A stretch of DNA of 64,000 bases from Flavipsychrobacter stenotrophus (GTDB taxonomy: Bacteria; Bacteroidota; Bacteroidia; Chitinophagales; Chitinophagaceae): positions 1 through 64,000 of the forward strand of contig NZ_PPSL01000007.1 in assembly GCF_002954265.1 (NCBI RefSeq), in the 5' to 3' direction. Every line of letters begins with the position of its first letter. Position 1 is the first letter of the stretch. The notes under the pieces were generated by a model. It had not been told where the DNA came from and did not search any database. It was given only the letters and a program-made list of their open reading frames with translations. Positions 1,307 through 48,548 of the stretch are shown here, in pieces. A program made the translations under genes and the position numbers.

Positions 1307-1343
1307 TGACATGGTGCTCTAACCAGCTGAGCATATAGTGCCC
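1307..1343 (-). repeat. tRNA 5'-half-like remnant (acceptor strand and D-arm)
   Basis: Read on the minus strand from 1343, the sequence resembles the 5' half of a bacterial tRNA: GGGCACT, then a D-arm GCTCAGCTGGTTAGAGC with the typical AGCTGGTTA loop. It diverges before the anticodon stem, so no functional tRNA exists here. A degenerate copy of the D-arm part sits at 4862-4889 in the same orientation, on the other side of the Roco gene. Confidence 0.55.
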
Positions 1344-1741: not shown

Positions 1742-4519
1742 ATGAAACAACACATTAAAGAAAAACTAGAGGGTTTAAAATCTAATACCAAGAACGTACA
1801 GCTTACATCTGGTCGACTAAAAGAAGTTCCAATAGAACTTAATATTTGTACCGAAATCAGGTATTTAGATTTATTTGGCAACTCTATTGATGAAATTCCT
1901 GACTGGTTCTATCGTTTTAAGAAATTAGAGCACCTAAGTCTACGAAATAATACACTTAAAGAACTACCTACAATTGTATTTACTCTCGAGAATATTAAAT
2001 ACCTAAACTTATCGGATAATCAAATACATGAAATAACGGGGCATTACTTTAGAAATTTGATGAGTATTGAAAAAGTTGATATTAGTTACAACCAAATAAC
2101 ATCAATTCCTTCAGAAAAAATAACATATTCGAAATGCAACAGTTTAAATATAAAAGGCAATAAATTACAAAAATTTCCAACTGCAGTAAGTGAAATTCAT
2201 ACTCTTGAGAAATTAGATTTGTCTGAAAACAATATTAATTCAATAGAGGATGATGCCTTTGAAGGACTTGAGAATTTGATAGAACTCGATTTAAGTTTCA
2301 ATAAGCTCCAATATTTACCAAGTAGTATCGGTCAATTAAAAAAGCTTAAAAGGCTGAATTTAAGTGGAAATGAGATTAGTTCTTTGCCAAAGGAATTTGA
2401 AAATCTTACCTCCTTGGAGTTTCTGGATTTCAATAATAATCCGATAGGAAGAGTACCAGTGGAAATTTCTTCACAGGGTGTTTCAGGAATCATAAACTAC
2501 TATCTATCGCTTGGTGATAATGTACAATTATTCGAAGCAAAGTTGCTGATAGTCGGACAAGGCAACGTTGGAAAAACCTATCTGATGAATCGCTTGATAC
2601 ATGACTCGATACCCGAAACCCAAACTACAGAAGGGATTGATATAAAAACATGGACGATTCAAACGCAGTCATCATCTGACTTCAGAGTCAATATTTGGGA
2701 CTTTGGAGGACAGGAGATATATCATTCAACTCACCAATTTTTTCTAACAAACAGATCTCTTTACTTGCTAATCTGGGAAGCAAGAACAGATCAACATCTT
2801 ATTAGCTTTGATTATTGGCTTAATGTTATTCGTCTTTTGAGTAGCAACTCCCCAGTAATAATTGTGCTAAATAAAATTGATGAAAGACTTGCCAACATTG
2901 ATGAAAAATCACTCAAGGCAAAGTTCAAAAACATAGTTTCTTTCCATCAAGTCAGTGCAAGTAGTGGTAAAAATATTGACTTGCTCACAACAAAAATTAG
3001 AGCGGAAATTGATTCATTGCCCCTTATTGGTGACAAGCTTCCCAAAGTATGGTTGGAAATAAGGACAATACTAGAAACTCAAGAGTCAAACTATATTTCA
3101 GCTGAACAATATTTAAACATTTGTAACCAGCACGGTTTGTCAAATAAGCGAGCACTTTTTTTAAGTCAATACTTTCATGATCTTGGTGTTTTTCTTCATT
3201 TTCAAGATGACAATTTCTTAAGAAATATACTTTTTTTAAAACCGGAATGGGCAACAAATGCAGTATATAAAATACTTGACTCAAAAGCTGTTATAGCTCG
3301 GAACGGTGAATTTGACTCTGACATGTTAGACTCTATACTTGAAGGATTTGAGCGTGACAAGCGTCCCTACATAGTTACACTCATGAAGAAGTTCGAGTTA
3401 TGTTTCGAGGTTGAAAGAAACTTGTTTCTAATACCAGAGTTACTTCAGCCAGAAAAAGTTGAATTTGATTGGGATTACAAAGATAATTTGCGTTTTGAGT
3501 ACCAATATGACTTTATGCCTGCGGGTATAATGGCTCGCTTTATTGTTAGAACAAGAAATTTGGTATACGATAAAACCTTCTGGAAGAATGGGGTAATTAT
3601 TCAAAGAGAAAATACAAGGGCATTAGTTACGGTCGACCAATATTCTCGAAAGCTTTATATCTGGATTCATGGCAATAATGCATCTTTTTTACTTGAGATT
3701 ATCAGGAAAGAATTGAATGACATACATCAATCTTTGAATTATCCTGATGTTCCTGAGAAAATCCCATGTAATTGTCAAGAATGCATTAATTCAAAGACCC
3801 CCCATCTCTTTAACTATGCATTTGTTAAAAGAGTAGGGTTTGAAAATACTTTCAGAACTATACCGTGTGAAGTGAGTGCTACAGGAGTAAATGTTCATAA
3901 ACTTCTTGGGTTATATCGAATTGATAGTCCTGAGCCTGATAATAATCCCATATACTCACTTGATAAAATCCTAAATGATCTTATTGAAGTTGGATCACGA
4001 ATTCTTGAACGAAAGTTTCAAAAGAAGATTGAAGACCTAATTAATGATGACATTGTTGATTTATTAAGAACCAAAGGGCATAATATTTCAGACCAAACGA
4101 GATCTGGGACTTCTGGTAATGGAAAAGGAGCTGGTGAATTAGACATTATGATTAGGATGAGCAATGGAATCCCAGTTACCATTATTGAATGTTTCAGACT
4201 CGAAAGTTGTGGCCCCAAAAATACAGTAATTGCAGATCACCTTATAAAACTACTTTCAAAATATGACACACATGAGCTTAAGCGTAAATTTATAATTGTG
4301 TTTGGTGAGGCAGAACGGTTTGACAATTTATGGACCAACTATACTCAATACATCAAAGATCTGAATTCTAATAATAATTATGGAGATGACTATCCTCTCT
4401 CGGGCTTTAGCGTGAGAGACGACCTCCATAGCTTTGCAAATATGAAAGTGGGTTTTTCAAGACATGAAAACAATGGCGAAATTGTTGAGGTTGTGCACGT
4501 GATGATAAATATGAAATAA
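1742..4519 (+). CDS. Roco-family GTPase: LRR-Roc-COR with C-terminal nuclease-like domain
   Basis: Predicted cytoplasmic 925-residue multidomain GTPase. Residues ~35-255 are leucine-rich repeats (repeated L..L.LS.N.I..IP units). The Roc GTPase domain follows, with a P-loop GQGNVGKT at ~271-279, Switch II DFGGQE at ~320 and NKID at ~377. COR spans roughly 430-690 and ends with a CNCQEC cysteine cluster (~676-681). The last ~150 residues contain a G-rich stretch, ELD at 799-801, a beta strand, then ECF at 816-818 followed by Arg819. That spacing resembles a PD-(D/E)XK nuclease core, although the canonical lysine is absent. Roc-COR proteins are known to dimerise and hydrolyse GTP; LRRs usually bind a ligand. 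The nuclease reading is my inference. The gene stands alone, between decayed genes and two tRNA-like repeats. The start was set at ATG 1742 rather than the upstream TTG 1691. Confidence 0.85.
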   Translation: MKQHIKEKLEGLKSNTKNVQLTSGRLKEVPIELNICTEIRYLDLFGNSIDEIPDWFYRFKKLEHLSLRNNTLKELPTIVFTLENIKYLNLSDNQIHEITGHYFRNLMSIEKVDISYNQITSIPSEKITYSKCNSLNIKGNKLQKFPTAVSEIHTLEKLDLSENNINSIEDDAFEGLENLIELDLSFNKLQYLPSSIGQLKKLKRLNLSGNEISSLPKEFENLTSLEFLDFNNNPIGRVPVEISSQGVSGIINYYLSLGDNVQLFEAKLLIVGQGNVGKTYLMNRLIHDSIPETQTTEGIDIKTWTIQTQSSSDFRVNIWDFGGQEIYHSTHQFFLTNRSLYLLIWEARTDQHLISFDYWLNVIRLLSSNSPVIIVLNKIDERLANIDEKSLKAKFKNIVSFHQVSASSGKNIDLLTTKIRAEIDSLPLIGDKLPKVWLEIRTILETQESNYISAEQYLNICNQHGLSNKRALFLSQYFHDLGVFLHFQDDNFLRNILFLKPEWATNAVYKILDSKAVIARNGEFDSDMLDSILEGFERDKRPYIVTLMKKFELCFEVERNLFLIPELLQPEKVEFDWDYKDNLRFEYQYDFMPAGIMARFIVRTRNLVYDKTFWKNGVIIQRENTRALVTVDQYSRKLYIWIHGNNASFLLEIIRKELNDIHQSLNYPDVPEKIPCNCQECINSKTPHLFNYAFVKRVGFENTFRTIPCEVSATGVNVHKLLGLYRIDSPEPDNNPIYSLDKILNDLIEVGSRILERKFQKKIEDLINDDIVDLLRTKGHNISDQTRSGTSGNGKGAGELDIMIRMSNGIPVTIIECFRLESCGPKNTVIADHLIKLLSKYDTHELKRKFIIVFGEAERFDNLWTNYTQYIKDLNSNNNYGDDYPLSGFSVRDDLHSFANMKVGFSRHENNGEIVEVVHVMINMK

Positions 4520-4861: not shown

Positions 4862-4889
4862 GACATGGTGCATCAAACCAGCTGAGCAT
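4862..4889 (-). repeat. Second tRNA D-arm-like repeat
   Basis: The plus strand reads GACATGGTGCatcaaACCAGCTGAGCAT, matching 1308-1333 (GACATGGTGCtctaACCAGCTGAGCAT) apart from a short central difference. The two copies are direct repeats about 3.5 kb apart and enclose the Roco gene. Only the D-arm part of the tRNA is recognisable here. Confidence 0.55.
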
Positions 4890-6551: not shown

Positions 6552-9500
6552 CTATAGTTGAACAATAATTTTATCTGCAACTTGACCATGTGCTGTTACA
6601 ATCGACAGGATATATACCCCTGTTTCATTGAGGTCAACGCTTATGGTACTGTTTGTTTTGATTTCCCTCTTCAATAACTCCCGGCCTAAAAAATCTGTTA
6701 CAATTAACTGTCCATTTTCTGTAAAGTCCGATGTCAACTTCACATTAAATCGTCCATTGTTTGGGTTGGGTGATATTTCCATTTTACCGACCTTGCCTGA
6801 AGTAATGTCATTAACTATTGTTGGCACTCTTAAATAGGTCTTCTGCATACAATCCTTATAGGTGGTGATGACCCAATAGTACTTGTTTGTAAAGTCAGGA
6901 TTCTCATTATAATAGTTCTGATTAGTTTCACCAACCAAAAGAGATGAATCTAATGTACCCACGTCGTCATAACCCCACTGATAGGTCCACTCAGGATTAA
7001 ACAAGCATACAAAATCAGGATGGTGATAGATCACTTCAGGTGACATTGACGTGTAATCGCCTACAAGTACTACAAACGAGTCCCTCGTTTTACAGGTATA
7101 TCCAGTGTATGATGAAGAAAGAGTTACCCAGGTAAAGCCCGGATACTTAAAGTTAACCAGACAATATTGGTCGTCAATACCGGTAGCCCATACTTCTGCA
7201 CCATTTGCTGTCCAGGTATATTTTATTCCTGATGGAGGAATTGAAGCAGCACCAAAATTCTGGTACATTGTTCCTGTACACAAATATGATGGAGACATAG
7301 TAGTGATCCTCGGCGGAGCAGGTGCTTGGGTTTCAACAAGTACATTTACATTTTGAGTCGAAGTACAACCAGCTGCAGATAGAGTAAATGTATACACTAC
7401 AAATATACCAGCACTGGTAGAATTGGTAAGACTCTCAGATATATAATTAGTCCCAGTACCCACTGAAGGTAATATACCTAAAACACTTGCTCGTGACCAT
7501 ATGAAAGATGTTAGTGGCGTAGCACTACTGGCAAGATAATTTATAGGGACATCTGAACATGTAGTGATGTTCAAGCTACTATTCATTGCCGGAATAGGAT
7601 TGATAATAACTGAAACGGCCTGAGTGTTGCTGCAACCTAAAGAAGTTACAGTGACATTATATATTACACTCGTTGGTAGAGCCCCATTTAGAACAAGTGT
7701 TTCATTAATACTATCAACACCATAACCTGCAACATTCACAATGAGCGGAACTACTGCCCTACTCCATGAATAACTGGCACCAGGACTGGCACTAGTCGGC
7801 AAATAATTAAATGGCGAACCGCTACATACACCTGCAGGATTCAAAGTGCTACTTAAAGAAGGAATAGGATTGACAGTAACATAGAATATGGCAGTATCGT
7901 ATCCGCATGTATTTGACACTACATATCTGACAATTGCTGTACCGGCATTAATACCATCTACCCTAACACTGTCCGAGCCTAATCCAGATGTATTGATATT
8001 GATTACTCCACTTGATGCAACAATGCTCCAGCTTCCACCCTGGACTATACTATGTAGTATACTTGAAGAACCTGCACAAATGCTACTTGGACCAGATATT
8101 GACCCGGCATAAGGAAGCTGTTTAACAATGACGGTATCAGTTACATCTGCAACTCCACATACGTTTGTTACAGTGTAGTGAATTACAACATTCCCAAATG
8201 ATAGCCCGTGCAAGACACCAGTTGAGTTAATCGTTGCAATGCTTAAATTACTGCTGCTCCATATACCGCCAATCGCAGTATCACTCAACAAAATATTAGA
8301 ACCGATACATACGTCAGGCAGCCCTGTAATATTGCCGGCAACGGGCAAAGCAATCACCGCGAGAGACTTGTGAACTGTATCTGATCCGCAGGTATTTGTA
8401 ATTACGTACTGAATTGTGTCTGTCCCAGGCAGTATGCCGCTGACCAGACCTGCAGTATTAATTACAGCATCAGTATTGGTCATCAGCCAGGTTCCACCAG
8501 GAGTAATATCTGCCACAGTAACAGTAGAGCCAACACAAACATATGCAGGGCCAGTAATGCTATCAATCACGGGTATTCGATCAATAAAGACTTCTAATGA
8601 ATTTGTGTCACTACCACAGATATTGGATAGTATGTAAACTGCTGTATCTAATCCATAAGAAATACCTGTCAAAGCTCCTGAGCTATTAATTGCAGCATGG
8701 TTATTCTTAACTGACCAGATACCCCCTGATACAGAATCCAAAAGTATCGTCGTTGCAAATTGGCATACCAATTGACTTCCTGTAATAGACGAGCCATTAG
8801 GTATAGAAAGCACGTGAACCATTACGCTATCTGAAGAAAAACAATTATTTATTCCTGCAGTTACTTTATAATATCCTGAGTCTGACAACGAAACTGGAAC
8901 TATTGCTGTGTTTTGAAACGTTGACGTGTAACCTCCTGGACCACTCCATACAAATGAAACCCCTATCGTAGTATCTGTTGAGCTCAAATTCAATATTGAA
9001 CCTAGGCAGACAGGTGAGTTAGTTGTCAAATGTGGAATGGCAGGATTAGGGGGATCAACTAGTAATCCTGTAACGTAATTTGAAGTACATCCACCTAATG
9101 AGACACTAATGTTTGTATAGGTACCCGCAGTTAAGCTATCAAGAAGTAAATTACCAACTGCATCAGAAGTTTTTACTGTTACGTGAGGAATACCATTTTT
9201 AAGATAATTGACGTTATAAGTGATCGAGCTCCCAACTCCCATTATCTTTATGGCACCACTTATGCCGTTACATGTTACTGGATGTATTAGTTGTACACCA
9301 CTAATAATAAACAGGTTATTTACTGTAACCGTAGCTGTTCTATAGCACCCTGAGGACAATGTGTAAGAAATTGTTGAACTGCCTACTGCTCTTGCATATA
9401 CTAAACCAGTACTGCTTATGGTTGCAACTGAAGTATCGCTACTGCTCCACACCCCACCTGAAACACTATCTGTCAGCTGAGATGTAGTACCGAGACACAA

Positions 9501-12500
9501 TCCTGTTGAACCTATAATAGGTTGAGGTAACGGATTTACTAGGACAGAAATATGACTACTGCATGCAGACAAGTTAGAGAGTGTAATTGTGAGTATTCCA
9601 GGAGTGACTGGAGTAACAACATACATTACAGCACCTGAAGAGTCTGTAAGCACTACTGGTGAATTCACACATGCTGTTGGACTACCAAAAATAGGAACCG
9701 GCAAAGGATTGACTTTGATCAGATCAACAACCTGGCAACCTGTGCTAGAAATTGTATAGACAATAGTATCAATTCCTGAATGGACACCAAAAACTAATCC
9801 TGAAGTACTAACAGTTGCAATTGAGAGATTGGCACTACTCCATATGCCACCCGGCGTTGTATTTGCCAATCCAACATTTGCCCCAACGCATACGGAATCA
9901 GTACCTGTTATTGCATTGGGCAACGGGTTTACTAATAACATAGTTGTTATAAGACAACCCGTTGGTAAAGTATAAGTGATCGTATCTATCCCAGTTGATA
10001 ATGCAGATACAAGACCAACAGGACTAATTGACGCAACTAAAATGTTACTGGTGCTCCAACTACCGCCAACTGAAATATCTGAGAGTAAAGATGTCAATCC
10101 AAAACAAACTGTAGTATCACCGGTTATAACTGCAGGAGTTGGATTAACTGTAATTACAAAGCTAACAGGACTACCAATACATCCATTTGCAGATGGAGCT
10201 ACAGTGATCGTAGATGTAGCTACAACGGGACTGGTATTAATTGCGGAAAATGAGCCTATATTCCCTATACCATTGGACGATAATCCTATGCTATTGTTAC
10301 TATTACTCCAGTTATAGGTTGTACCGCTAACTAACGAACCTCCGAAAATAATTGCGGCGGTACTAAGTTGATTACATACGCTTTGATCTGACACCGCGGC
10401 TACTGAGGGTGTAGGATTGACCGTAATATTGAAGCTATTAGATAGACCGTTGCACCCATTTGCATATGGAGTTATGTTTATAGTTGCGATAACAGCGGTA
10501 ATTCCACCATTTAAAGCAGTAAATGCAGGTATATTACCAACACCAGTTGCAACAATTCCTATACTAGTGTCGCTGTTGATCCAATTGTAAACAGTTCCCG
10601 AAACAGAACCTCCAAATATAGTAGATGCTACAAAATCAGAATTACATACAGTTTGACTAGGTACAGAAAAAACATTTGGAGTAGGATTTACAGTGATATT
10701 GAAATTTTGAGAATTACCTGTACAACCATTCGCAGCTAAAGTAACTGTAATTGTAGAAGTAACAGCAACCGTACCTGTATTATTAGTTACAAAGGATGAG
10801 ATATTGCCGGTTCCTGAGTTAGCTAATCCCATACCAGAAGTACTATTGACCCAGCTATAACTGGCTCCACTTACCGACCCACCAAATACTACTGATGTGG
10901 TCGCGCCTCCATTGCATATTGTCTGCCCAGAAACCGGAGAAACAAAAGGTGTGGGTTTAACATCAATTGTAAAAGTAGTTGTGCTTCCATTACAAAGATT
11001 AGCTGTAGGTGTGACAGTAATGATAGCTGAAACAACTGTACTTCCGGCATTTATTGCTGAAAATGGAGCTATTGACCCAGCCCCTGTTGAAGCAAGACCT
11101 ATCGATGGGGCGTTGTTTGCCCAGCTATAGGATGTTCCCGCAACATTACTATTGAATGATACTAATGTGGTTGAGAATCCATTACAAATAGACTGACCTG
11201 AAACTGGGGAAATAATTGGAGTTGGGTTTACAGTTATGGTGAAATTTTGCGCGGGACCATTACAACTATTTGCAAATGGAGTAACGGTAATAGTTGAAAT
11301 GGTACTTGTTGTCCCAACATTTACCACTGGGAAGGAAAGGATGTTACCAATACCAGATGCTGCAAGACCGATACTTCCATTGTTGTTTGCCCAATTGTAA
11401 ACAGTGCCAACTACACTACCGCCAAATAATACTGTTGCTGCCGAAGCTCCATTACATATTATTTGATTTGAAACTGGATTTACATCCGGAGTTGGCTTGA
11501 TAGATATTGTAAAGACTTGAGCAGCACCAATACACCCATTAACCGATGGAGTTACAGTAACTGTTGACACAGAAGTAGCAGTTGTGGTGTTGATACCAGT
11601 AAATGCAGCCATGTTACCTGTACCTGCTGTTGGCAACCCAATAGATGGGTTGCTATTTACCCAATTATAGACTGTACCTGTAACACCTCCACTAAAAATA
11701 ATGGCAGTAGTCGCCGCTCCATTACAAACAGATTGACTTGTCAATGGCAGTAAATCAGGGGTGGGATTTACGGTTATCGTAAAATTAACAGGACTACCAC
11801 TGCAGAGATCTGCAACTGGAGTGACCGTAATAGTAGAAACATTTGCAACGTTCCCAGAATTCGATCCGACAAATGGCAATATATCACCAGATCCTGTTGC
11901 TGGAATACCTGTAGTGTTATTGCTATTAGTCCAATTATAAACAGTAGAAAATCCACTTATTGGAGACCCTGTAAATGACACTAGAGTCGTAGTTGAGCTA
12001 TTGCATATCGTCTGGCTTGCAACAGAAATTACAGTTGGAGATGGTTTTACATTTAAGCTAAAACTCTGAGGTGATCCAACACAACTATTGGCAACAGGGG
12101 TTACAATTACTGTTGATGTTACGGCTACGCTACTGCTATTTATTCCTGTAAATGATGCGATATTACCTGTTCCTGATGACGCTAATCCAATACTGCTATT
12201 GCTATTAGACCAATTGTAGTTTGTACCACTTACTGTTCCATTAAATACTATTGTTGCAGTATTGGTGTTATTGCATACTGTTTGTCCTGGCACACTCAAT
12301 ACGGTTGGTGTTGGTTTTACTGTGATAGTAAAATGCTGAGAACCACCAATGCAACCGTTACCTACAGGAGTAACCGTAATTGTGGAGGCAATTGCCGAAC
12401 TTGTCAGATTGCTGGCAGTAAATGCCCCTATGCTATCACTTCCAAAAGAAGACAGCCCGATGGTTGCATCACTGTTTATCCAGTTATATATAGTAGAAGA

Positions 12501-15500
12501 TCCACTAACCGAAGTTCCATTAAAAATAACAGAGGATGTCAAGTTGTTATTACATACTGATTGATTTGAAATAGGGAGAACCGTAGGAGCTGGTTTAACA
12601 GTAATTGTAAGATTTTGGCTTGTACCAACACATGTATTAGCAACTGGTGTTACTGTGATAGTTGATGTTACTGCCACGCTACCTGTGTTAATCACAATAA
12701 ATGAAGCAATATCTCCCGACCCAGTCGTTGCAAGACCAATACTGCTATTACTATTTGACCAATTGTAAACTGTACCGCTTACATTGCCACTGAGTGCAAT
12801 TGCAGTATCAAAGGTTCCATTACAAACAATCTGACTAGTAACAGGTATTACCGTTGGAGTCGGATTTACCACTACAGAAACTGTTTGCGGCAAACCACTA
12901 CATCCATTTGCATATGGTGTTACAGTAATCGTTGAAGTAACTGGTGTCGATGTCGTGTTAACAGAGACAAACGATGCAATGTTACCTGTACCAATAGTAG
13001 CAAGACCAATACTTGCATTACTATTGATCCAGTTATATGTCGTTGAAAATCCAGTAACAGGAGATCCAGTAAACACTATTGTTGAAGTTGACGCATTATT
13101 ACAAGTTGTCTGCCCCGCGATTGGGAATATTGTTGGAGATGGTTTAGCAGTGATAGTGAAAATCTGAGTGCCTCCATTACATCCGTCAGCAACGGGCGTC
13201 ACCGTAACAGTTGACACAATTAGCGTACTACCTGTATTTAGAGCAGTAAACGTACTTATATCTCCGGCTCCTGATCCTGGTAAACCAGTACTGCTGTTGT
13301 TATTGATCCAATTATAGGTAGTTGAAAAACCACTGATAGCTACGCCACTAAACAAAATGGGCGTACTAGATTGTGTGTTACATAATGTTTGACTGGCAAT
13401 AGGCAGTAAAGTTGGTGATGGTTTTACTGTTATTGTAAAAAAGTCAGCAATACCTATACAGCTGTTAGCCGAAGGTGTAACGGATACTATTGCCGTTGCT
13501 GAGACAGTACCCGTGTTAATAGCTGTGAAAGATCCAATATTCCCTGTCCCAGTTGTAGTAATCCCAATTGTACTATTACTATTTGTCCAACTGTACAACG
13601 TACCTGAAACAGCACCTGCAAAAGTTGCTGAAGTCAATGTATTATTACATACAATCTGGTCGGAAATATGATTTACGGTTGGTGTAGGCTTAACTGTTAA
13701 TGTAAACGTCTGTGGAGCTCCTGTACAACTATTAGCAACCGGTGTAACTGTAATGGTAGTAGTTATTGCTACACTTCCATTATTGATTGCAGTAAAAGAG
13801 CCTATATCGCCTGTTCCAGTAGTTGCAAGGCCAATGCTGCTATTACTATTTGACCAATTGTAAACAGTCCCACCAACGCCTCCTGTAAAAGTAATTGGTG
13901 TAGTTGATGCATTATTGCATACTGCTTGATTCACGACTGCAGATACTGTAGTTGTTGGCGCAACCGTAATTGTAAAGATCTGTGAAGAACCAATACATCC
14001 ATTTGCAGTAGGTGTAACAGTAATTGACGAAAATGTGATTGTACTACCAGAGTTCACCGCAATGAACGATCCAATACTACCTGTCCCAGATGTAGCTAAG
14101 CCTATACTACTATTAGTATTTACCCAACTGTAGGTTGTACCACTTACAACACTTGAGAAGGAAATGGACACAGCAGCACCATTACATACAGCCAGGTTAG
14201 ATAATGAGGTGATAGTCGGTGTTGGTTTAACAGTTACGTTAAAGGAACTGGATGATCCATTACATCCATTTGCCACAGGGGTAACTGTTACAGTGGAAGT
14301 GATGGCAACAGTTCCTGTATTAATAGCAGTAAAAGAACCAATATCTCCTGAGCCTGTACTAGCAATACCGATGCTATTGTTACTATTCACCCAGTTATAA
14401 GTTGTTGGTACTCCGATAATTGGTGATCCCCCAAATATGATTGGCGTGCTCAACGAAGTATTACATAGGATTTGGTTTGTAGTAGTATTAACTGTTGGCG
14501 CAGGATTGATTGTTATAGTAAAACTATCTAGAGTACCAATACAACTACCAACAGATGGTGCAACGATAATATTCGAGGTGACAGCAACACTACTGCTATT
14601 CAAACCGGTAAATGACGAAATATTTCCAGTTCCATTGGCACTTAACCCGATTCCTGCATTACTATTAGTCCAGGTATAACTAGCACCAGGCACCGAACCA
14701 GAAAAATTGATGGGTGAAGTACCTGTATTTTTACAAATTGCCTGATCCGCAACTGGATTAATCGAAGGTGTGGGAGTTACATTGATAGTAAAGTTACTTG
14801 AAGTCCCAATACAACCGTTGAACACTGGTGTTACAGTTATAGTTGCCGTTACGGTAACGCTGGTGCTGTTAATGCCTGTGAATGAGGCAATATTGCCTGT
14901 ACCGGTAGATGCCAAGCCGATACTACTGTTGCTATTTGCCCAGTTGTAAGTTGTACCGGCCACAGATCCATTAAATATAATTGGAGAGGTAAAAGTATTG
15001 TAACAAAGAGTTTGATTTGAAATTGGCGATACAGTTGGTGAAGGGTTTACTGTGTAATTGAAACTTATTGAACTGCCTGCACAACCATTTGCAGCCGGAG
15101 TAATAGTTATTGTGGATGTTACCGCAACAGCAGATCCATTGTTAGCTGTAAATGAACCAATACTACCCGTACCTGAAGTAGCCAAGCCGATACTACTGTT
15201 ACTATTCGACCATGTGTAAGTTACTGGTACTACAGAACTAGTAAATGTAGTTGGCGCAGTTAGTGCATGATTGCACACCGACTGATTCAAGACAGGTGAT
15301 AATATCGGTGTAGGTTTAACTGAAATGGTAAAAGATTGTTGGATACCTGCGCATCCATTAGCATTTGGAGTAACCGTAATCGTTGAAGTAACAACTGTAA
15401 CACCAGAATTTATTGAAGTAAAAGAAGCAATATTTCCATTTCCTGATGAGGCAATACCAATTGTAGTATCAGATGAAGCCCAACTATAAGTAGTGCCCGC

Positions 15501-18305
15501 AACCGGACCAGAAAAAGAAGTCAACGAAGTCATGCTTCCATTACACAAAATTTGATTAGATGTTACGGATAAACTTGGTCGAGGATTGACTGTTATTGAA
15601 AATATTTGCTGAGGCCCACTACAACTGTTAGCTACTGGAGTTACAGTAACCACTGAAACTAATGGAACATTGGTTGCATTTGTAGCAAGATATGACCCTA
15701 TATCACCCGACCCGGATACGCCAAGCCCAATAGCACTGTTACTGTTGATCCAATTATAGGTAGTTGGACTACCACTTACAGCAACACCATTAAATGATAT
15801 TAAAGTCGATGTAGAGCCGGAACATATTATTTGATTGGGAATAGGAGTAACTGTAGGTGAAGGTTTGACAGTTATCGTGAAAGACATTGGAATGCCGGTG
15901 CATCCATTAGAAAAAGGAGTAACTGTAACTGTAGATGTTACAGCAACACTACTTGAATTCAATGCGGTAAATGACGGTATATTTACTGCACCCGATAAAG
16001 CCAGTCCTATGCTACTATTACTATTTGTCCAACTGTATGTAGCGCCAGCAACTGATCCGGTGAATGTAATTGCTACGGAAGATGTGTTATTACAGACTAC
16101 CTGGCTAGATATTGCATTAACTGTTGGAACTGGATTTACAACAACAGTCCTATTTGTAGTATTAGCACATCCGTTACCTCCAACCGCTGTTACCGTGTAG
16201 ATAGTAGTTGCGGTAGCATTAGAGACTACTACCCCACCGGTAGAAGCAGATAGCCCTGTAAATGGAGTCCAAGTATAACTGATACCACCCGACGCGGTTA
16301 GTGTGATGTTTTGTCCGCTACATATTATAGCAGGTGCTGGTGTGATGCTGATTGTTGGCAATGAATCAACTACAATTGTTGTAACGGATGTATCAGCGCA
16401 TAAATTACCATCCTTACCCGTTACTGTGTAAGTTGTTGTAACTGTCGGATGCGCATTAACTGACGTACCTGTAGTTGTGGTTAAACCTGTTGTTGGAAGC
16501 CATGAATATGTAGTTCCGCCTGTTGCCGTCAGAGTTGTATTCTGACCACTACAGATTGTCGTAGGTGGTGATGCCATTGTAACAGTTGGCAAAGAATTAA
16601 CTGTAACTATCTTAGTTGCAGTACTTATGCAACCATTGATATTATTTCCTGTAACAGTATAAGTAGTTGTTGTCGTTGGAGAAGCAACGACAGACACTCC
16701 AGTACTAGAGCTCAGAGTTGTTACTGGTATCCAGGAATAGCTTATTCCACCACTGGCAGTCAAAGTGCGAGTGCTACCAACGCAAACAGAGGCGAACGTA
16801 GGAGAAATAGAAATAATTGGAAGTGCATTGATAGTAATTGTAATTGTAGTAAAGCATGTGGTAGGAAGCGTATATGTAATTGTTACTGTACCTGAAGCAA
16901 GTCCTGTTAGTTTCCCAGTAGTGGCATTAATAGTTGCTGTTGACGGGCTGTTACAAGTCCAAATTCCTCCAGAATCAATATCGGTTAATGTTACAGAAGA
17001 ACCTACACAAAGAGCAGGCGGACTAGAGATCGGGTTGGGAAGGGAGTTTGTTATAACTTGATAATCTACTTCACAACCACCTCCTAATGAATAAGTAAAG
17101 CTGACATGATTAATGCCAATATGAGTTCCAGTGTAGGTTTCCCAAGGATCATTATTTAGTGAATCTCTTACAGTGATAGGATTGCCATAACATGTACTGA
17201 ATGACCCAAGATGTAAACTATCAGGATGAACTGAAACGACTCTAGTTACGAAACAACCTGTAACGGGATATATGTAAGATATAATAGCAGCACCTGTATC
17301 GAGCCCAGTAATATATGCTGTAGAAGGATCTATAGTAGCTATAGAAGGACTTCCGCTGCTCCAAATTCCTCCAGTACTGGTTTCCAATAAATGAATTTGA
17401 TGTCCAATGCAAGTGACAGCAGCCGTTGTTAAATATACCTGAATATCTGCTGGTCGAGGATTTACTGTAATTGCACTAATTGCTGTATTGCTGCAATTAT
17501 TTGTATCAGAGCCGGTAACCAAATATAATTGGGTTGCGCTAGGACTAGCCACAACAGATGATCCAGTAGATGTATTTAAACCTGAGACGGGATTCCATGA
17601 ATAACTTGTTCCGCCAACTGCAGTTAAAACAGCACTATTGCCATTACAGATAGTATCTAACGATGGAGTAACGGATATTACAGGTAATGGCTTAATTGTA
17701 ACTTTAATAGAATCTCTTGCACTTTCACATCCACTTATTGTTTGCGAGACATAGTACTTTGTTTCTCCGACTAGCGCAGTTGAAGGGATTGGTGTTACTG
17801 ATGAGCCTACCCCTCCTGTTGCAGAAGTATACCATTGTAAAGATGCACCTGTTGCTACTAATGCAGAATCAGGTCCATTATTGCAATATTGAATAGGTGA
17901 AAGTACAATTGGTGTGGACGGTTGAAAAATTGTAGCGACTATTGTGATTATTGCAGAATCAGTTCCATCATAGATCTTGATCTTGAAGGTGTCTGTACCC
18001 GTGAAACCGATGACAGGTGAATAAGCAACCGTATGTGACGGGGCCATTGCAAGACCTGAAGAACTCAAAGTGTCATCTAAGCCTGTAATGCTACCATGGG
18101 TAGGCAACCTAAAAATAGATATAACCTCAACTTGCCCGGTATCTAGATCGTTGAATTGCAATAGAGCATTCAAGCTATTATTTAGTGAGTTTTTACATAC
18201 AGTTATAGTTTGTGGTGAAATAGAAACAAAGCTAGGTGGGTTATTGGCTCTTAATTTGCTAGAAATGAACAATAAAACTAAAAGAAAAGCATAAGAGTTT
18301 TTCAT
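6552..18305 (-). CDS. Giant T9SS-exported adhesin-like protein with 22 PKD-like repeats
   Basis: Predicted cell-surface or secreted protein of 3917 residues. The start was set at ATG 18305, which gives a clean export signal (MKNSYAFLLVLLFISSKLRA); the upstream in-frame start at 18344 would bury it. Residues ~21-130 look cadherin-like, followed by several Ig-like units. Residues ~720-2720 are 22 tandem ~90-residue repeats (consensus PTPTV..NQ.VCN, then YNW.NSNSSIGLA, then TITVTP.ANGC). Next come Ig-like repeats carrying GGIWSSSNLSIAT-type motifs. The last ~75 residues form a T9SS type A sorting domain (NPNNGRFNVKL, then GVYILSI). Paired cysteines in each repeat suggest disulfides. Such proteins are typically adhesins, gliding or matrix components; no enzyme domain is seen. 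It is transcribed alone. Many plus-strand open frames inside it are shadows. Confidence 0.9.
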   Translation of the reverse strand: MKNSYAFLLVLLFISSKLRANNPPSFVSISPQTITVCKNSLNNSLNALLQFNDLDTGQVEVISIFRLPTHGSITGLDDTLSSSGLAMAPSHTVAYSPVIGFTGTDTFKIKIYDGTDSAIITIVATIFQPSTPIVLSPIQYCNNGPDSALVATGASLQWYTSATGGVGSSVTPIPSTALVGETKYYVSQTISGCESARDSIKVTIKPLPVISVTPSLDTICNGNSAVLTAVGGTSYSWNPVSGLNTSTGSSVVASPSATQLYLVTGSDTNNCSNTAISAITVNPRPADIQVYLTTAAVTCIGHQIHLLETSTGGIWSSGSPSIATIDPSTAYITGLDTGAAIISYIYPVTGCFVTRVVSVHPDSLHLGSFSTCYGNPITVRDSLNNDPWETYTGTHIGINHVSFTYSLGGGCEVDYQVITNSLPNPISSPPALCVGSSVTLTDIDSGGIWTCNSPSTATINATTGKLTGLASGTVTITYTLPTTCFTTITITINALPIISISPTFASVCVGSTRTLTASGGISYSWIPVTTLSSSTGVSVVASPTTTTTYTVTGNNINGCISTATKIVTVNSLPTVTMASPPTTICSGQNTTLTATGGTTYSWLPTTGLTTTTGTSVNAHPTVTTTYTVTGKDGNLCADTSVTTIVVDSLPTISITPAPAIICSGQNITLTASGGISYTWTPFTGLSASTGGVVVSNATATTIYTVTAVGGNGCANTTNRTVVVNPVPTVNAISSQVVCNNTSSVAITFTGSVAGATYSWTNSNSSIGLALSGAVNIPSFTALNSSSVAVTSTVTVTPFSNGCTGIPMSFTITVKPSPTVTPIPNQIICSGSTSTLISFNGVAVSGSPTTYNWINSNSAIGLGVSGSGDIGSYLATNATNVPLVSVVTVTPVANSCSGPQQIFSITVNPRPSLSVTSNQILCNGSMTSLTSFSGPVAGTTYSWASSDTTIGIASSGNGNIASFTSINSGVTVVTSTITVTPNANGCAGIQQSFTISVKPTPILSPVLNQSVCNHALTAPTTFTSSVVPVTYTWSNSNSSIGLATSGTGSIGSFTANNGSAVAVTSTITITPAANGCAGSSISFNYTVNPSPTVSPISNQTLCYNTFTSPIIFNGSVAGTTYNWANSNSSIGLASTGTGNIASFTGINSTSVTVTATITVTPVFNGCIGTSSNFTINVTPTPSINPVADQAICKNTGTSPINFSGSVPGASYTWTNSNAGIGLSANGTGNISSFTGLNSSSVAVTSNIIVAPSVGSCIGTLDSFTITINPAPTVNTTTNQILCNTSLSTPIIFGGSPIIGVPTTYNWVNSNNSIGIASTGSGDIGSFTAINTGTVAITSTVTVTPVANGCNGSSSSFNVTVKPTPTITSLSNLAVCNGAAVSISFSSVVSGTTYSWVNTNSSIGLATSGTGSIGSFIAVNSGSTITFSSITVTPTANGCIGSSQIFTITVAPTTTVSAVVNQAVCNNASTTPITFTGGVGGTVYNWSNSNSSIGLATTGTGDIGSFTAINNGSVAITTTITVTPVANSCTGAPQTFTLTVKPTPTVNHISDQIVCNNTLTSATFAGAVSGTLYSWTNSNSTIGITTTGTGNIGSFTAINTGTVSATAIVSVTPSANSCIGIADFFTITVKPSPTLLPIASQTLCNTQSSTPILFSGVAISGFSTTYNWINNNSSTGLPGSGAGDISTFTALNTGSTLIVSTVTVTPVADGCNGGTQIFTITAKPSPTIFPIAGQTTCNNASTSTIVFTGSPVTGFSTTYNWINSNASIGLATIGTGNIASFVSVNTTSTPVTSTITVTPYANGCSGLPQTVSVVVNPTPTVIPVTSQIVCNGTFDTAIALSGNVSGTVYNWSNSNSSIGLATTGSGDIASFIVINTGSVAVTSTITVTPVANTCVGTSQNLTITVKPAPTVLPISNQSVCNNNLTSSVIFNGTSVSGSSTIYNWINSDATIGLSSFGSDSIGAFTASNLTSSAIASTITVTPVGNGCIGGSQHFTITVKPTPTVLSVPGQTVCNNTNTATIVFNGTVSGTNYNWSNSNSSIGLASSGTGNIASFTGINSSSVAVTSTVIVTPVANSCVGSPQSFSLNVKPSPTVISVASQTICNSSTTTLVSFTGSPISGFSTVYNWTNSNNTTGIPATGSGDILPFVGSNSGNVANVSTITVTPVADLCSGSPVNFTITVNPTPDLLPLTSQSVCNGAATTAIIFSGGVTGTVYNWVNSNPSIGLPTAGTGNMAAFTGINTTTATSVSTVTVTPSVNGCIGAAQVFTISIKPTPDVNPVSNQIICNGASAATVLFGGSVVGTVYNWANNNGSIGLAASGIGNILSFPVVNVGTTSTISTITVTPFANSCNGPAQNFTITVNPTPIISPVSGQSICNGFSTTLVSFNSNVAGTSYSWANNAPSIGLASTGAGSIAPFSAINAGSTVVSAIITVTPTANLCNGSTTTFTIDVKPTPFVSPVSGQTICNGGATTSVVFGGSVSGASYSWVNSTSGMGLANSGTGNISSFVTNNTGTVAVTSTITVTLAANGCTGNSQNFNITVNPTPNVFSVPSQTVCNSDFVASTIFGGSVSGTVYNWINSDTSIGIVATGVGNIPAFTALNGGITAVIATINITPYANGCNGLSNSFNITVNPTPSVAAVSDQSVCNQLSTAAIIFGGSLVSGTTYNWSNSNNSIGLSSNGIGNIGSFSAINTSPVVATSTITVAPSANGCIGSPVSFVITVNPTPAVITGDTTVCFGLTSLLSDISVGGSWSTSNILVASISPVGLVSALSTGIDTITYTLPTGCLITTMLLVNPLPNAITGTDSVCVGANVGLANTTPGGIWSSANLSIATVSTSGLVFGVHSGIDTIVYTISSTGCQVVDLIKVNPLPVPIFGSPTACVNSPVVLTDSSGAVMYVVTPVTPGILTITLSNLSACSSHISVLVNPLPQPIIGSTGLCLGTTSQLTDSVSGGVWSSSDTSVATISSTGLVYARAVGSSTISYTLSSGCYRTATVTVNNLFIISGVQLIHPVTCNGISGAIKIMGVGSSITYNVNYLKNGIPHVTVKTSDAVGNLLLDSLTAGTYTNISVSLGGCTSNYVTGLLVDPPNPAIPHLTTNSPVCLGSILNLSSTDTTIGVSFVWSGPGGYTSTFQNTAIVPVSLSDSGYYKVTAGINNCFSSDSVMVHVLSIPNGSSITGSQLVCQFATTILLDSVSGGIWSVKNNHAAINSSGALTGISYGLDTAVYILSNICGSDTNSLEVFIDRIPVIDSITGPAYVCVGSTVTVADITPGGTWLMTNTDAVINTAGLVSGILPGTDTIQYVITNTCGSDTVHKSLAVIALPVAGNITGLPDVCIGSNILLSDTAIGGIWSSSNLSIATINSTGVLHGLSFGNVVIHYTVTNVCGVADVTDTVIVKQLPYAGSISGPSSICAGSSSILHSIVQGGSWSIVASSGVININTSGLGSDSVRVDGINAGTAIVRYVVSNTCGYDTAIFYVTVNPIPSLSSTLNPAGVCSGSPFNYLPTSASPGASYSWSRAVVPLIVNVAGYGVDSINETLVLNGALPTSVIYNVTVTSLGCSNTQAVSVIINPIPAMNSSLNITTCSDVPINYLASSATPLTSFIWSRASVLGILPSVGTGTNYISESLTNSTSAGIFVVYTFTLSAAGCTSTQNVNVLVETQAPAPPRITTMSPSYLCTGTMYQNFGAASIPPSGIKYTWTANGAEVWATGIDDQYCLVNFKYPGFTWVTLSSSYTGYTCKTRDSFVVLVGDYTSMSPEVIYHHPDFVCLFNPEWTYQWGYDDVGTLDSSLLVGETNQNYYNENPDFTNKYYWVITTYKDCMQKTYLRVPTIVNDITSGKVGKMEISPNPNNGRFNVKLTSDFTENGQLIVTDFLGRELLKREIKTNSTISVDLNETGVYILSIVTAHGQVADKIIVQL
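10145..16137 (-). repeat. 22-copy array of ~270-bp coding repeats
   Basis: Twenty-two successive units can be counted in the translation of the giant gene. Each begins P.PT or a variant, carries one cysteine near its start (VCN/ICN) and one near its end (NGC/NSC), and has the signature NWxNSNSSIGLA. Units are 87-93 residues long. Some carry a 2-3 residue insertion in the first half (type ISGFSTTYNW), so there are two length classes. Copies are clearly diverged in DNA, not recent perfect duplicates. Confidence 0.9.
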
Positions 18306-18550
18306 AGAGATAGTATAAAATTTTAATTGAGGATAAAAGTACAATTAATAAATATAATTTCAGCACAATGAAGCGATTATTGGATTACACATAAAATAAT
18401 ATTAATTTTATTTTATAAATCTAAGTTCAACTCTTCTGTTTAGCTTTTTTATAAAATTTTATTGTCCTTATTTCATCAGTAACCATAGTAATATATTGTG
18501 TATATTCCCTTTTGGAAGGCATTACATCACTCTATAATCAAATTCTTAAA

Positions 18551-45715: not shown

Positions 45716-47257
45716 ATGGAGGCAAACAAAACCCTACGTCTTATACTCGGCGATCAGTTGAACAGACAGCATAGTTGGTATGCACGCGTAGATGATGATA
45801 CTACATATGTAATGATGGAAGTGCGATCAGAAACTGACTACGCTACTCATCATATTCAGAAAGTAGCCGGCTTCTTTGCCGCTATGCGTGCCTTTGCTGA
45901 TGAACTGAGCATGCTAAAGCACAATGTCGTTTATATAAAATTGACCCATGAAGGAAACAAACAGAGCTTCAAGGAAAACATATCAGACCTCATAGCCAAA
46001 AAGAACTTCACACATTTTGAATACCAGCTACCCGATGAATACCGGATGGACATGCTACTGCAAGACGTTACCAGCAACCTGTCAATTCCCTTCAAACTAT
46101 ACGATACAGAACATTTCTTCAGTACCCGGGACGAACTAGGTAAGTTCTTTGAAGGCAAGAAGCTGTACCTGATGGAGAATTTCTACAGGTACATGCGCAA
46201 AAAGCACAACATCCTGATGGATGGTGACAAACCAGTAACCGGCCAGTGGAATTATGATGGAGAAAACAGGAAGAAACTACCCGCAGGCCACAAGCCGGTT
46301 GCGCCAATTCTACTTCAGAATAATGTACAAGACATCGTCGACGAGATCGGTACAACAAACATTAAAACAATTGGCACCGTCAAGGTAAACGCTTTCGCAT
46401 GGCCAATTGACAGGCAACAATCTCTTTCATTGCTTAGCTTCTTTCTAAAGGAATGTCTGCCATTGTTTGGCACATACCAGGATGCCATGACAACAGGTGA
46501 ATGGTCGCTCTATCACTCCCGCATATCCTTCTCACTGAACTCTAAAATGATATCTCCGGCTGAAGTAATAGAAGCGGCCATACAAGAGTGGAGCGAAAGA
46601 CCAACTGAGATACAGTATAACCAACTGGAAGGATTTGTGAGGCAGATAATTGGCTGGCGGGAATACATGAGGGGTATCTATTGGCTTAAAATGCCTGAAT
46701 TTGCTACGCTCAATTTCTTCGAACATACTACTTCTCTACCCGATTGGTATTGGACAGGGCAAACAAAGATGAACTGCCTGAAACAAAGCATTCAACAGTC
46801 ACTCACGCATGCCTATGCCCACCACATACAACGCTTGATGGTAACAGGCAATTTTGCCTTACTGGCAGGCGTACACCCCGACGAGGTCGATGTCTGGTAT
46901 CTGGGTATCTATATTGATGCACTCGACTGGGTAGAAGTGACCAATACCCGCGGTATGAGTCAATATGCCGACGGTGGAATTATTGGCACAAAGCCATACG
47001 TCAGCTCTGCTGCCTACATCGACAAAATGAGCAACTATTGTTCCACTTGCTACTACGACAAGTCTAAGAAGACAGGCAACAGAGCCTGCCCGTTCAATAG
47101 CTTGTATTGGAACTTCTATAACAGGCATGAAGAAAAGCTGGCCAAAAATCCAAGGGTACAAATAATGTATACCATCTGGAACAAAATGAAACCCGGGCAA
47201 AAAGCAGAACTACTACAGCAAGCAGACTATTACTTACAAAACATTAATGCGCTATAA
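45716..47257 (+). CDS. phrB: Fe-S bacterial cryptochrome/(6-4) photolyase (PhrB-like)
   Basis: A 513-residue protein of the photolyase-related FeS-BCP group, which repairs (6-4) photoproducts in light using FAD and a [4Fe-4S] cluster. The N-terminus (LRLILGDQLNRQHSW) and helical middle are typical. Four cysteines at ~354, 442, 445 and 458 (MNCLKQS, NYCSTCYY, RACPF) have the spacing of the cluster ligands of PhrB. It is followed by Cry-DASH with an 11-base overlap, so the pair form one transcriptional unit. The gene symbol is used in the family sense. Confidence 0.88.
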   Translation: MEANKTLRLILGDQLNRQHSWYARVDDDTTYVMMEVRSETDYATHHIQKVAGFFAAMRAFADELSMLKHNVVYIKLTHEGNKQSFKENISDLIAKKNFTHFEYQLPDEYRMDMLLQDVTSNLSIPFKLYDTEHFFSTRDELGKFFEGKKLYLMENFYRYMRKKHNILMDGDKPVTGQWNYDGENRKKLPAGHKPVAPILLQNNVQDIVDEIGTTNIKTIGTVKVNAFAWPIDRQQSLSLLSFFLKECLPLFGTYQDAMTTGEWSLYHSRISFSLNSKMISPAEVIEAAIQEWSERPTEIQYNQLEGFVRQIIGWREYMRGIYWLKMPEFATLNFFEHTTSLPDWYWTGQTKMNCLKQSIQQSLTHAYAHHIQRLMVTGNFALLAGVHPDEVDVWYLGIYIDALDWVEVTNTRGMSQYADGGIIGTKPYVSSAAYIDKMSNYCSTCYYDKSKKTGNRACPFNSLYWNFYNRHEEKLAKNPRVQIMYTIWNKMKPGQKAELLQQADYYLQNINAL

Positions 47258-48548
47258 AGTGAAAACCGCCATAGTCTGGTTCAAAACGAACCTGAGAGTA
47301 CATGACAACGAGCCACTGCTAAGAGCCATTGAGCAAAACGACCTGGTAATACCGGTATATTGTTTTGATGACAACCACTATAGAACAACCGAAAAGGGCT
47401 TTAAGAAAACAGGTTCCTTCAGAGCACAATTTATCTTGCAGGCATTGTTAGATCTGGACAGCAGCTTACGTCAACTAGGCTCAGGACTTTTGATTGTAAA
47501 GGGTAACACAGGTGATGTATTAGCGCAAATAGCACTGGAATACAAAGCTCGTAAAATATATGCCCAACAGGAAGTTGCTCATGAAGAACTACAAACTCAG
47601 GATGAAGTTACAACTAAGCTACAAGCTATTCATTGCTCACTGGAGACTTTTAATACAACCGCACTTTACCATCCCCACGACTTGCCATTTACAATAGCAA
47701 ACGTACCTGATATTTTCACCCCGTTCAGACATAAGGTAGAATCTTCCACCAAAATAAGAGCTCCCTTTCCTTCACCAAAAGCTATCAGATCACTAGAACT
47801 ACCTGCACTGCAACTCCCGAGCTTATCCGACCTTGGATTGGGTCCTGCAATTTTAGATAGCCGTGCTGCGTTTAATTACCCCGGAGGAGAAAGCAGCGCA
47901 ATGATGAGGGTTAAATACTACTTTGAAGAAAGCGGACTGGTCTCATCATATAAAGCAACTCGCAATGGACTGGTAGGCGCAGACTACTCCACTAAGTTCT
48001 CACCCTGGCTGGCCATTGGCTGCTTGTCGCCCCGGTATGTATATCAGAAGTTGAAGGCATATGAAGCAAACTATGGGGCCAATGACTCCACCTATTGGGT
48101 AGTATTTGAATTATTATGGAGAGACTATTTCCGATTAATAATGAGCAAATATGGTGTACAATTATTCCTGAAGAACGGCATTGACAGCAACCACCCGAAA
48201 GCTAAACAGCACAATACAGAAGTATTCGCAAAATGGATCAACGGCGAAACGGGAGTAGACTTTGTAGATGCCAACATGCGTGAACTAAAACTTACAGGCT
48301 TCATGAGCAACAGAGGACGGCAGAATGTAGCCAGCTACCTATGTAACGACCTTAAACTAGACTGGACATATGGTGCAGCATATTTTGAAGTACAACTGAT
48401 AGATTATGACGTGTGCAGCAACTGGGGCAACTGGGCATATATAGCCGGTGTAGGCAACGACCCACGCAAAGACAGGTACTTCAACATTCAAAAGCAAGCC
48501 GACCAATATGACACTGACCACAGTTATAGAAACCTGTGGCTTAAGTAA
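47247..48548 (+). CDS. DASH-family cryptochrome/photolyase
   Basis: A 433-residue flavoprotein. The N-terminal alpha/beta domain (TAIVWFKTNLRVHDNEPLL) binds an antenna cofactor, and the C-terminal helical domain binds FAD. The segments WLAIGCLSPRYVYQ, YDVCSNWGNWAYIAGVGND and DPRKDRYFNIQKQ are typical of the Cry-DASH group. These proteins repair cyclobutane dimers in single-stranded DNA. Translational coupling with the FeS photolyase (11-base overlap) suggests a common UV/light-damage response. No local light-responsive regulator is visible. Confidence 0.92.
   Translation: MRYKVKTAIVWFKTNLRVHDNEPLLRAIEQNDLVIPVYCFDDNHYRTTEKGFKKTGSFRAQFILQALLDLDSSLRQLGSGLLIVKGNTGDVLAQIALEYKARKIYAQQEVAHEELQTQDEVTTKLQAIHCSLETFNTTALYHPHDLPFTIANVPDIFTPFRHKVESSTKIRAPFPSPKAIRSLELPALQLPSLSDLGLGPAILDSRAAFNYPGGESSAMMRVKYYFEESGLVSSYKATRNGLVGADYSTKFSPWLAIGCLSPRYVYQKLKAYEANYGANDSTYWVVFELLWRDYFRLIMSKYGVQLFLKNGIDSNHPKAKQHNTEVFAKWINGETGVDFVDANMRELKLTGFMSNRGRQNVASYLCNDLKLDWTYGAAYFEVQLIDYDVCSNWGNWAYIAGVGNDPRKDRYFNIQKQADQYDTDHSYRNLWLK

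Follow-up and report, generated by a model that had tools for sequence, protein, structure and literature searches.

A bacterial Roco GTPase with a predicted PD-(D/E)XK-like C-terminal domain whose relatives occur in anti-phage loci

RESULTS AND DISCUSSION

Gene structure, domain layout, and surroundings

The window, by which we mean the whole stretch of 64,000 nucleotides analysed here from Flavipsychrobacter stenotrophus (contig NZ_PPSL01000007.1), carries on its + strand an intact gene (1742..4519), a single open frame that runs from the ATG at 1742 to the stop at 4519 and encodes 925 aa with the layout LRR-Roc-COR-CTD, as assigned by ORF calling and Pfam. In all eight orthologous genes, the window's among them, the equivalent ATG can serve as the start and gives exactly 925 codons, making the upstream TTG at 1691 an unlikely start. 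As position 1 of the window is also position 1 of its contig, the upstream side of the gene is known for 1.7 kb only.

Leucine-rich repeats (LRRs) occupy residues 15 to 245 or so (1784..2476, + strand; Pfam LRR_8) and are followed by a Roc (Ras-like) GTPase domain at residues 267 to 425 (2540..3016, + strand; Pfam Roc/Ras), where the Roc family matches residues 267 to 380 with an E value of 2.4e-28. The G1, G3, and G4 motifs are in place as the P-loop GQGNVGKT at residue 272, DFGGQE at 320, and NKID at 377. The COR region comes directly after Roc, at residues 434 to 722 (3041..3907, + strand; PF16095 and PF25497), and consists of COR-A (434 to 568; 2.7e-40) and COR-B (581 to 722; 2.7e-30). The LRR-Roc-COR layout and the three GTPase motifs named in the original prediction, which was made from the letters alone, are therefore borne out. 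A Roc domain with G1, G3, and G4 and a COR region directly behind it are what characterise Roco (Roc-COR) proteins, and the N-terminal LRRs together with a variable C-terminal domain in the effector position correspond to the plan of the LRR-AP-GTPase-COR conflict proteins.

The remaining C-terminal domain (CTD) is 189 residues long (residues 737 to 925; 3950..4516, + strand) and is predicted to be a PD-(D/E)XK-like effector, its key positions being E764, D784-Q785, G798-E799-x-D801, E816-x-F818, H833, and K836. The Pfam scan of the 925-aa protein yields nothing after residue 722 at an E value of 1, and the CTD shows weak Pfam matches to other families only (TSCPD, 0.07; Ntox33, 0.13). PADLOC has no match to the window protein or its CTD, and NCBIfam, run on the window protein alone, has no convincing match for the CTD.

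The gene is bracketed by a pair of 17-base fragments of repeat family D12, at 1318..1334 (-) and, as a near copy (94%), at 4873..4889 (-), which we take to be tRNA-like; ARAGORN finds no tRNA in the window. The bracketing pair is a possible insertion scar and possibly a chance occurrence. Between position 1 and 1340, at the contig end, three short - strand frames (421-1312) look like a broken propeller-type sensor gene. Elsewhere, the window contains two giant repeat-rich frames on the - strand (6552-18344 and 51826-63456; 3930 and 3876 aa) with a secretion-type-like C-terminus, as well as adjoining genes at 45716-48548 that by eye resemble photolyases or cryptochromes, and the G+C content climbs from about 0.37 to 0.43-0.49 starting roughly there.

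Conserved residues and a displaced lysine

In the alignment A4 of 24 CTD rows, which go down to 25% identity to the window's CTD, the invariant positions are E764, D784, Q785, G798, D801, E816, H833, K836, Y841, F860, Y867, and H919. When eight later loci are added, nine of them (E764, G798, D801, E816, H833, K836, Y841, Y867, and H919) are identical in 32 of 32 members, rows that are not independent, since they include eight close Roco orthologs and the near-identical pair L022 and L106. Four further positions are kept almost throughout, with D784 in 28/32 and Q785, F860, and E799 in 31/32 each. The decayed CTD copies at L079 and L081 and the weak matches in G979 and at a second place in G1084 were left out of the alignments. 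A chance motif is ruled out, as nine residues are kept in all 32 relatives.

The acids of the PD-(D/E)XK motifs II and III are thus present in every row as D801 and E816. The lysine of the classical ExK motif, two residues after E816, occurs in none of the 32, the position being taken by F (21), L (8), M (2), or Y (1), and the helix after the third strand carries a lysine, K836, in all 32. A 2007 survey (PMC1913061, in part) describes a lysine (or arginine) that has moved to the helix after strand 3 in DUF506, DUF790, and DUF1626. By analogy, the CTD would have the same arrangement of motifs I, II, III, and IV, with the lysine shifted from motif III to motif IV.

The sequence had initially been read as a GE-LD/E pattern resembling a PD-(D/E)XK core with a substituted lysine. 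The resemblance holds and the ExK lysine is indeed replaced, but it is not simply lost, given the invariant K836 on the next helix. Likewise, GELDI at residue 798 and IECFR at 815 are found with 14 residues between D801 and E816, as predicted, but the second string reads ECFRL and not ECF.R.

Fold of the C-terminal domain

Two AlphaFold2 models of the CTD, built on shallow alignments of 9 and 8 sequences, have mean pLDDT values of 79.2 and 80.2 and pTM values of 0.82 and 0.78. In both, the elements follow each other as helix-strand-strand-strand-helix-strand, which is the PD-(D/E)XK order along the chain (the chain order only, not the order in the sheet). E764 sits at the first core helix or shortly ahead of it. 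Strands 1 and 3 contain D784 and E816, respectively, D801 is in strand 2 or next to it, and the helix after strand 3 holds K836. The 12 to 14 residues ahead of the GE-D motif have pLDDT values below 50 in both models.

A Foldseek search of both models against the PDB gives no match at an E value of 0.001 or below, and the first model has no match in BFVD. Among the best 50 matches listed per model, most are tyrosine phosphatases with TM scores below 0.4 over the query; the one restriction enzyme among the matches listed, EcoT38I, is at rank 6 with an E value of 0.043, and phosphatases rank as high. The chain order of both models thus agrees with the nuclease fold put forward in the original prediction, a candidate fold for which the PDB search gave no significant match.

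The PADLOC type IIG profile (PDLC03624) matches the CTDs of L013 (2.8e-5), L015 (0.0044), and L011 (0.0053) and none of the other 7 of 10 proteins, the matched positions of the type IIG restriction-methyltransferase profile being 95-181, 92-180, and 93-179, respectively. Weak matches are CARF_PDDEXK for P0003 (0.0042) and PDDEXK_4 for one of 16 (0.033). In hhalign, the CTD aligns to the type IIG nuclease domain in the right register with a P value of 0.0016, and to PDDEXK_4 with 0.13. In the sliding-window control, however, other windows of the same proteins reach 0.015, and windows of the nuclease domain (two sequences) only 0.077-0.082. As this control was not passed, we give the hhalign result no weight; our odds, which derive from the invariant residues, the chain order, and the type IIG match, are the same with or without it. 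Since the Foldseek and hhalign comparisons are not significant and the ExK lysine is absent, the domain is termed PD-(D/E)XK-like here, short of proven membership in the superfamily.

Distribution and selection of the Roco gene

A genome scan turned up CTDs of 75-89% identity in six relatives, namely, two Flavobacterium species, Chryseobacterium taeanense, Hyunsoonleella pacifica, Spirosoma luteum, and one Bacteroidetes MAG; a seventh ortholog, with an 84% identical CTD, lies on plasmid pSLIN03 of Spirosoma linguale. The CTD is found in none of 10 other genomes of the same genus, some of them incomplete, so that the gene is patchily distributed, being absent close by and present in other genera. 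The LRRs are the least conserved part, with 65-82% identity to the window against 82-89% for Roc. The median dN/dS among orthologs is 0.10 for the LRRs, 0.05 for Roc, 0.06 for COR, and 0.062 for the CTD, with 14-18 of 28 ortholog pairs usable per region (14 of 28 for the CTD) and much saturation. Judged by this ratio, with many pairs saturated, the CTD is under purifying selection.

Remoter Roco proteins with the CTD occur in Photobacterium toruni, G744 (L074), and G977 (L107), giving 11 Roco loci including the window, where Pfam was run on the window and Photobacterium proteins only and the rest were assigned by eye. The Photobacterium toruni gene (L016:7727-10465) lies on a plasmid within a Tn7-like type I-F CRISPR-associated transposon, flanked by a helix-turn-helix regulator and tniQ. 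The close orthologs are mostly solitary; three of them (L009, L010, and L011) sit amid genes that look like housekeeping genes by eye, and the neighbours of another (L008) read like recombinases. In the Roco branch, the context thus shows mobility (plasmid and CRISPR-associated transposon) rather than island membership, and the 925-aa orthologs are not clearly in defence islands.

The C-terminal domain on unrelated proteins

The CTD ends proteins that are otherwise unrelated, namely, Roco proteins, LRR-only proteins, proteins of about 1,250 and about 1,340 aa, and partners of ATPases. One LRR protein ending in the CTD (L020) has no Roc domain evident by eye. ORF333 of P2-EC5 also ends in the CTD and is the second gene of a P2-prophage pair with an AAA_15 ATPase. 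The proteins of about 1,250 aa are found on Burkholderia, Salmonella, and Edwardsiella plasmids and on one viral contig, and those of about 1,340 aa in Bacteroidota. Three CTD proteins of 1,343-1,354 aa (L022, L106, and L113) are encoded near genes resembling relaxase and MobC types, and two-gene units (L110:9957-13153 and L111:9311-12534) pair a CTD protein of 383-385 aa with a partner of 683-687 aa. By eye, L113 also holds a gene set resembling JetA-JetD. At L076, there is a JetC match of 3.7e-10.

The domain is rare. It was found in 4 of 99 relatives, in 5 of 395 genomes from the phylum and 6 of 299 from one family, and, with a wider profile, in 13 of 396 genomes from the order, the window's own genome being counted within the 4, the 5, and the 13. 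Five of 72,556 plasmids match the window's CTD, and another query added two Acinetobacter plasmids; the L022 CTD had no match in the plasmid search, and the L021 CTD only two already known records. One of 50,697 phage records has the CTD, and ORF333 is found in 4 of 5,426 E. coli genomes. The viral contig scans gave two contigs with the CTD, one of them 99% identical to ORF333 of P2-EC5, four of the seven scans being without a match and one returning the second of these contigs again. Searches with the CTD in Pfam, PHROGs, and solved structures gave no convincing match, and neither, apart from the type IIG match, did PADLOC across the CTD family. As far as these sequence searches go, the CTD appears to define an effector family without a convincing match in Pfam, PADLOC (aside from type IIG), PHROGs, or NCBIfam (window protein only).

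Defence genes near CTD relatives

Several CTD genes have neighbours from anti-phage systems, the Hachiman, Lamassu, OLD, PDC-S73, and Gabija neighbours having been picked by eye. In one Hachiman locus (L021:10100-15177, G037), HamA (2.6e-112) and HamB (E value of 0) are followed by a 485-aa CTD gene without a Pfam match; it differs from the published third Hachiman gene, HamC, which the available text of PMC8565338 gives as a DUF3223 protein. A Shedu-like gene may lie in the same locus at 6776-7990, judged by eye. One Lamassu-like operon (L075:9477-14003, G726) encodes a 212-aa protein, LmuB (5.4e-139), a 353-aa protein and, last, the CTD protein, and its flanks look like phage genes or a prophage by eye. 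At L017, the CTD gene adjoins an OLD-family ATPase gene; at L078, a PDC-S73 gene is at most some 1.3 kb away from it, and at L081, GajA, GajB, and a TmtA-like gene are found no more than about 7 kb from the decayed copy. The ORF555-ORF333 pair fills the gpA-gpQ interval in two of the four E. coli genomes, the two looked at, and this interval is described as a P2 prophage hotspot by Rousset et al. (PMC9122126, in part).

For a comparison that does not depend on picked neighbours, PADLOC was run at an E value of 1e-20 on ten Bacteroidota CTD loci and on stretches of the same genomes chosen by hand at round coordinates, counting only ORFs of 220-1500 aa that are complete within the stretch. It gave 128 models over 74 ORFs at the CTD loci and 4 over 104 control ORFs, where the 128 are partly redundant, many being alternative models of one component. 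The best 25 of the 128 include TmtA, PtuA, PtuB, SduA, HamB, GajA, GajB, LmuB, and PDC-S73. Our own count of proteins, read from these best 25 of 128 listed models plus HamA from the Hachiman locus, is at least 15 of 74 against at most 4 of 104 (Fisher one-sided, 0.00056), and a count of 12 or 10 would give 0.005 or 0.019. The ten loci include L081, with its decayed CTD, and L079, which has a stop in the CTD and is 13 kb long, its control being trimmed to 13 kb. The window, the named genome, the plasmid and phage loci, the eight later loci, and G098, whose control contig was too short, stood outside the comparison.

The suggestion that the gene serves defence therefore gains from its relatives, which were found within or close to Hachiman, Lamassu, and Gabija genes, at the P2 hotspot, in a CRISPR-associated transposon, and on plasmids, but not from the close Roco orthologs, which are mostly alone. 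Homologues that are never near defence or mobile genes, the finding that would speak against the suggestion, are not what we see.

Proposed function and alternative explanations

Because relatives of the nuclease-like CTD sit in anti-phage systems, we propose, with a probability of about 0.6, that the Roco protein is an immune receptor which, once triggered, attacks nucleic acid, where both the nuclease activity and the phage defence are predicted from sequences and models. In this single-gene receptor, the LRRs might detect some signal of phage or of other incoming DNA. Roc-COR would then change its nucleotide state and shift between dimer and monomer; this step is modelled on CtRoco, which according to the accessible text of PMC11052575 is a dimer without nucleotide and a monomer with GTP. 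The switch would then free or orient the CTD, a putative metal-dependent PD-(D/E)XK-like enzyme using E764, D801, E816, and the displaced K836, which could cut nucleic acid so that the invader is blocked or the cell is stopped.

The CTD might instead be nuclease-like in fold and yet no nuclease, acting as a nucleic-acid binder or as a docking or oligomerising module while the Roco protein signals in another way. The complete lack of a lysine at the classical position would fit such a role, but all 32 rows share E, D, E, H, and K, a set that is more than binding usually demands, and we regard this explanation as unlikely. The CTD gene that follows hamA-hamB adds to its appeal, as HamA is already a nuclease there (PMC12278908, in part), and the published precedent for lysine migration (PMC1913061, in part) takes away from it. 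Less probable again is that the CTD is some other enzyme, differing in fold or substrate (a phosphatase- or hydrolase-like effector, for instance), in which the GE-D/E pattern arose by chance. The tyrosine phosphatases that dominate the best Foldseek matches listed, the lack of a significant nuclease match, and the failed hhalign control all suit this idea, whereas the low TM scores of those phosphatases and the fact that the best sequence-profile match is a restriction enzyme argue against it.

A different kind of objection concerns the Roco protein itself, which could serve ordinary signalling or regulation, so that the defence contexts of the CTD relatives do not carry over. Several orthologs do lie amid genes that do not look like defence genes, and the functions of bacterial Roco proteins are described as very little known (PMC6337361, in part). 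We nevertheless think this improbable, since a gene missing from all 10 same-genus genomes (some incomplete) has 75-89% identical CTDs in other genera and on a Spirosoma plasmid, and one relative is inside a CRISPR-associated transposon.

Returning to the immune receptor, its plan is known, and the effector it carries is shared with other proteins, absent from the libraries searched, and probably nucleolytic. More tentatively, and at slightly less than even odds, a family of displaced-lysine PD-(D/E)XK-like nucleases might be a general effector cartridge of bacterial immunity, used by LRR-GTPase receptors, in one Hachiman and one Lamassu operon, by P2-prophage ATPase pairs, in a CRISPR-associated transposon, and by large proteins, with the Roco version as a GTP-switched counterpart of NLRs with a nuclease output.

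Relation to known systems

The gene is a bacterial relative of the Parkinson's disease protein LRRK2. In the open-access literature on Roco proteins in phage defence, we found no paper testing a bacterial Roco protein against phage. With so little known of bacterial Roco roles, a defence-linked and probably nucleolytic CTD makes the question testable, with the GTP state as input and DNA or RNA cleavage as output. The CTD also marks genes that are absent from the libraries searched, so searching with a CTD profile could reveal accessory effectors of Hachiman and Lamassu that are not yet listed, as well as further candidate systems.

The receptor plan is already known, and the effector family has, apart from the type IIG match, no convincing match in the libraries searched. 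Kaur et al. (2021) described bacterial LRR-AP-GTPase-COR proteins, of the same layout as the window protein, with at least 24 different C-terminal domains and predicted counter-invader roles (PMC8195603). The domains given by name there are GT4, TIR, DRHyd, caspase, trypsin, FGS, and EADs and include no PD-(D/E)XK-like domain; the CTD may still be one of the 24. A 2020 study by the same authors, in the part available (PMC7159879), reports REase-fold effectors in NTPase-based conflict systems, one clade of which was new there, and mentions COR proteins; this clade may be the CTD. CtRoco of Chlorobium tepidum is, like the window protein, an LRR-Roc-COR relative of LRRK2, but the accessible description covers an LRR-Roc-COR core only (PMC11052575), whereas the window protein adds an enzyme-like C-terminal domain.

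On the effector side, the N-terminal nuclease domain of type IIG restriction enzymes (PDLC03624) has GRLDI and IECK aligned with GELDI and IECF of the CTD; it keeps the ExK lysine, which in the CTD gives way to F, L, M, or Y, while the following helix of the CTD holds a lysine in every row. The nuclease-protease pairs that recur in Hachiman, AVAST, Lamassu, and DRT are, like the CTD, one effector module in unrelated systems, but their nuclease, as far as the text of PMC12799240 was available, has a metallo-beta-lactamase fold and is activated by a protease. Lamassu LmuA similarly offers an effector slot with exchangeable enzymes, including PD-(D/E)XK nucleases (PMC10586767, in part); its effector domain is N-terminal, whereas the CTD ends a separate protein encoded by the last gene of the operon.
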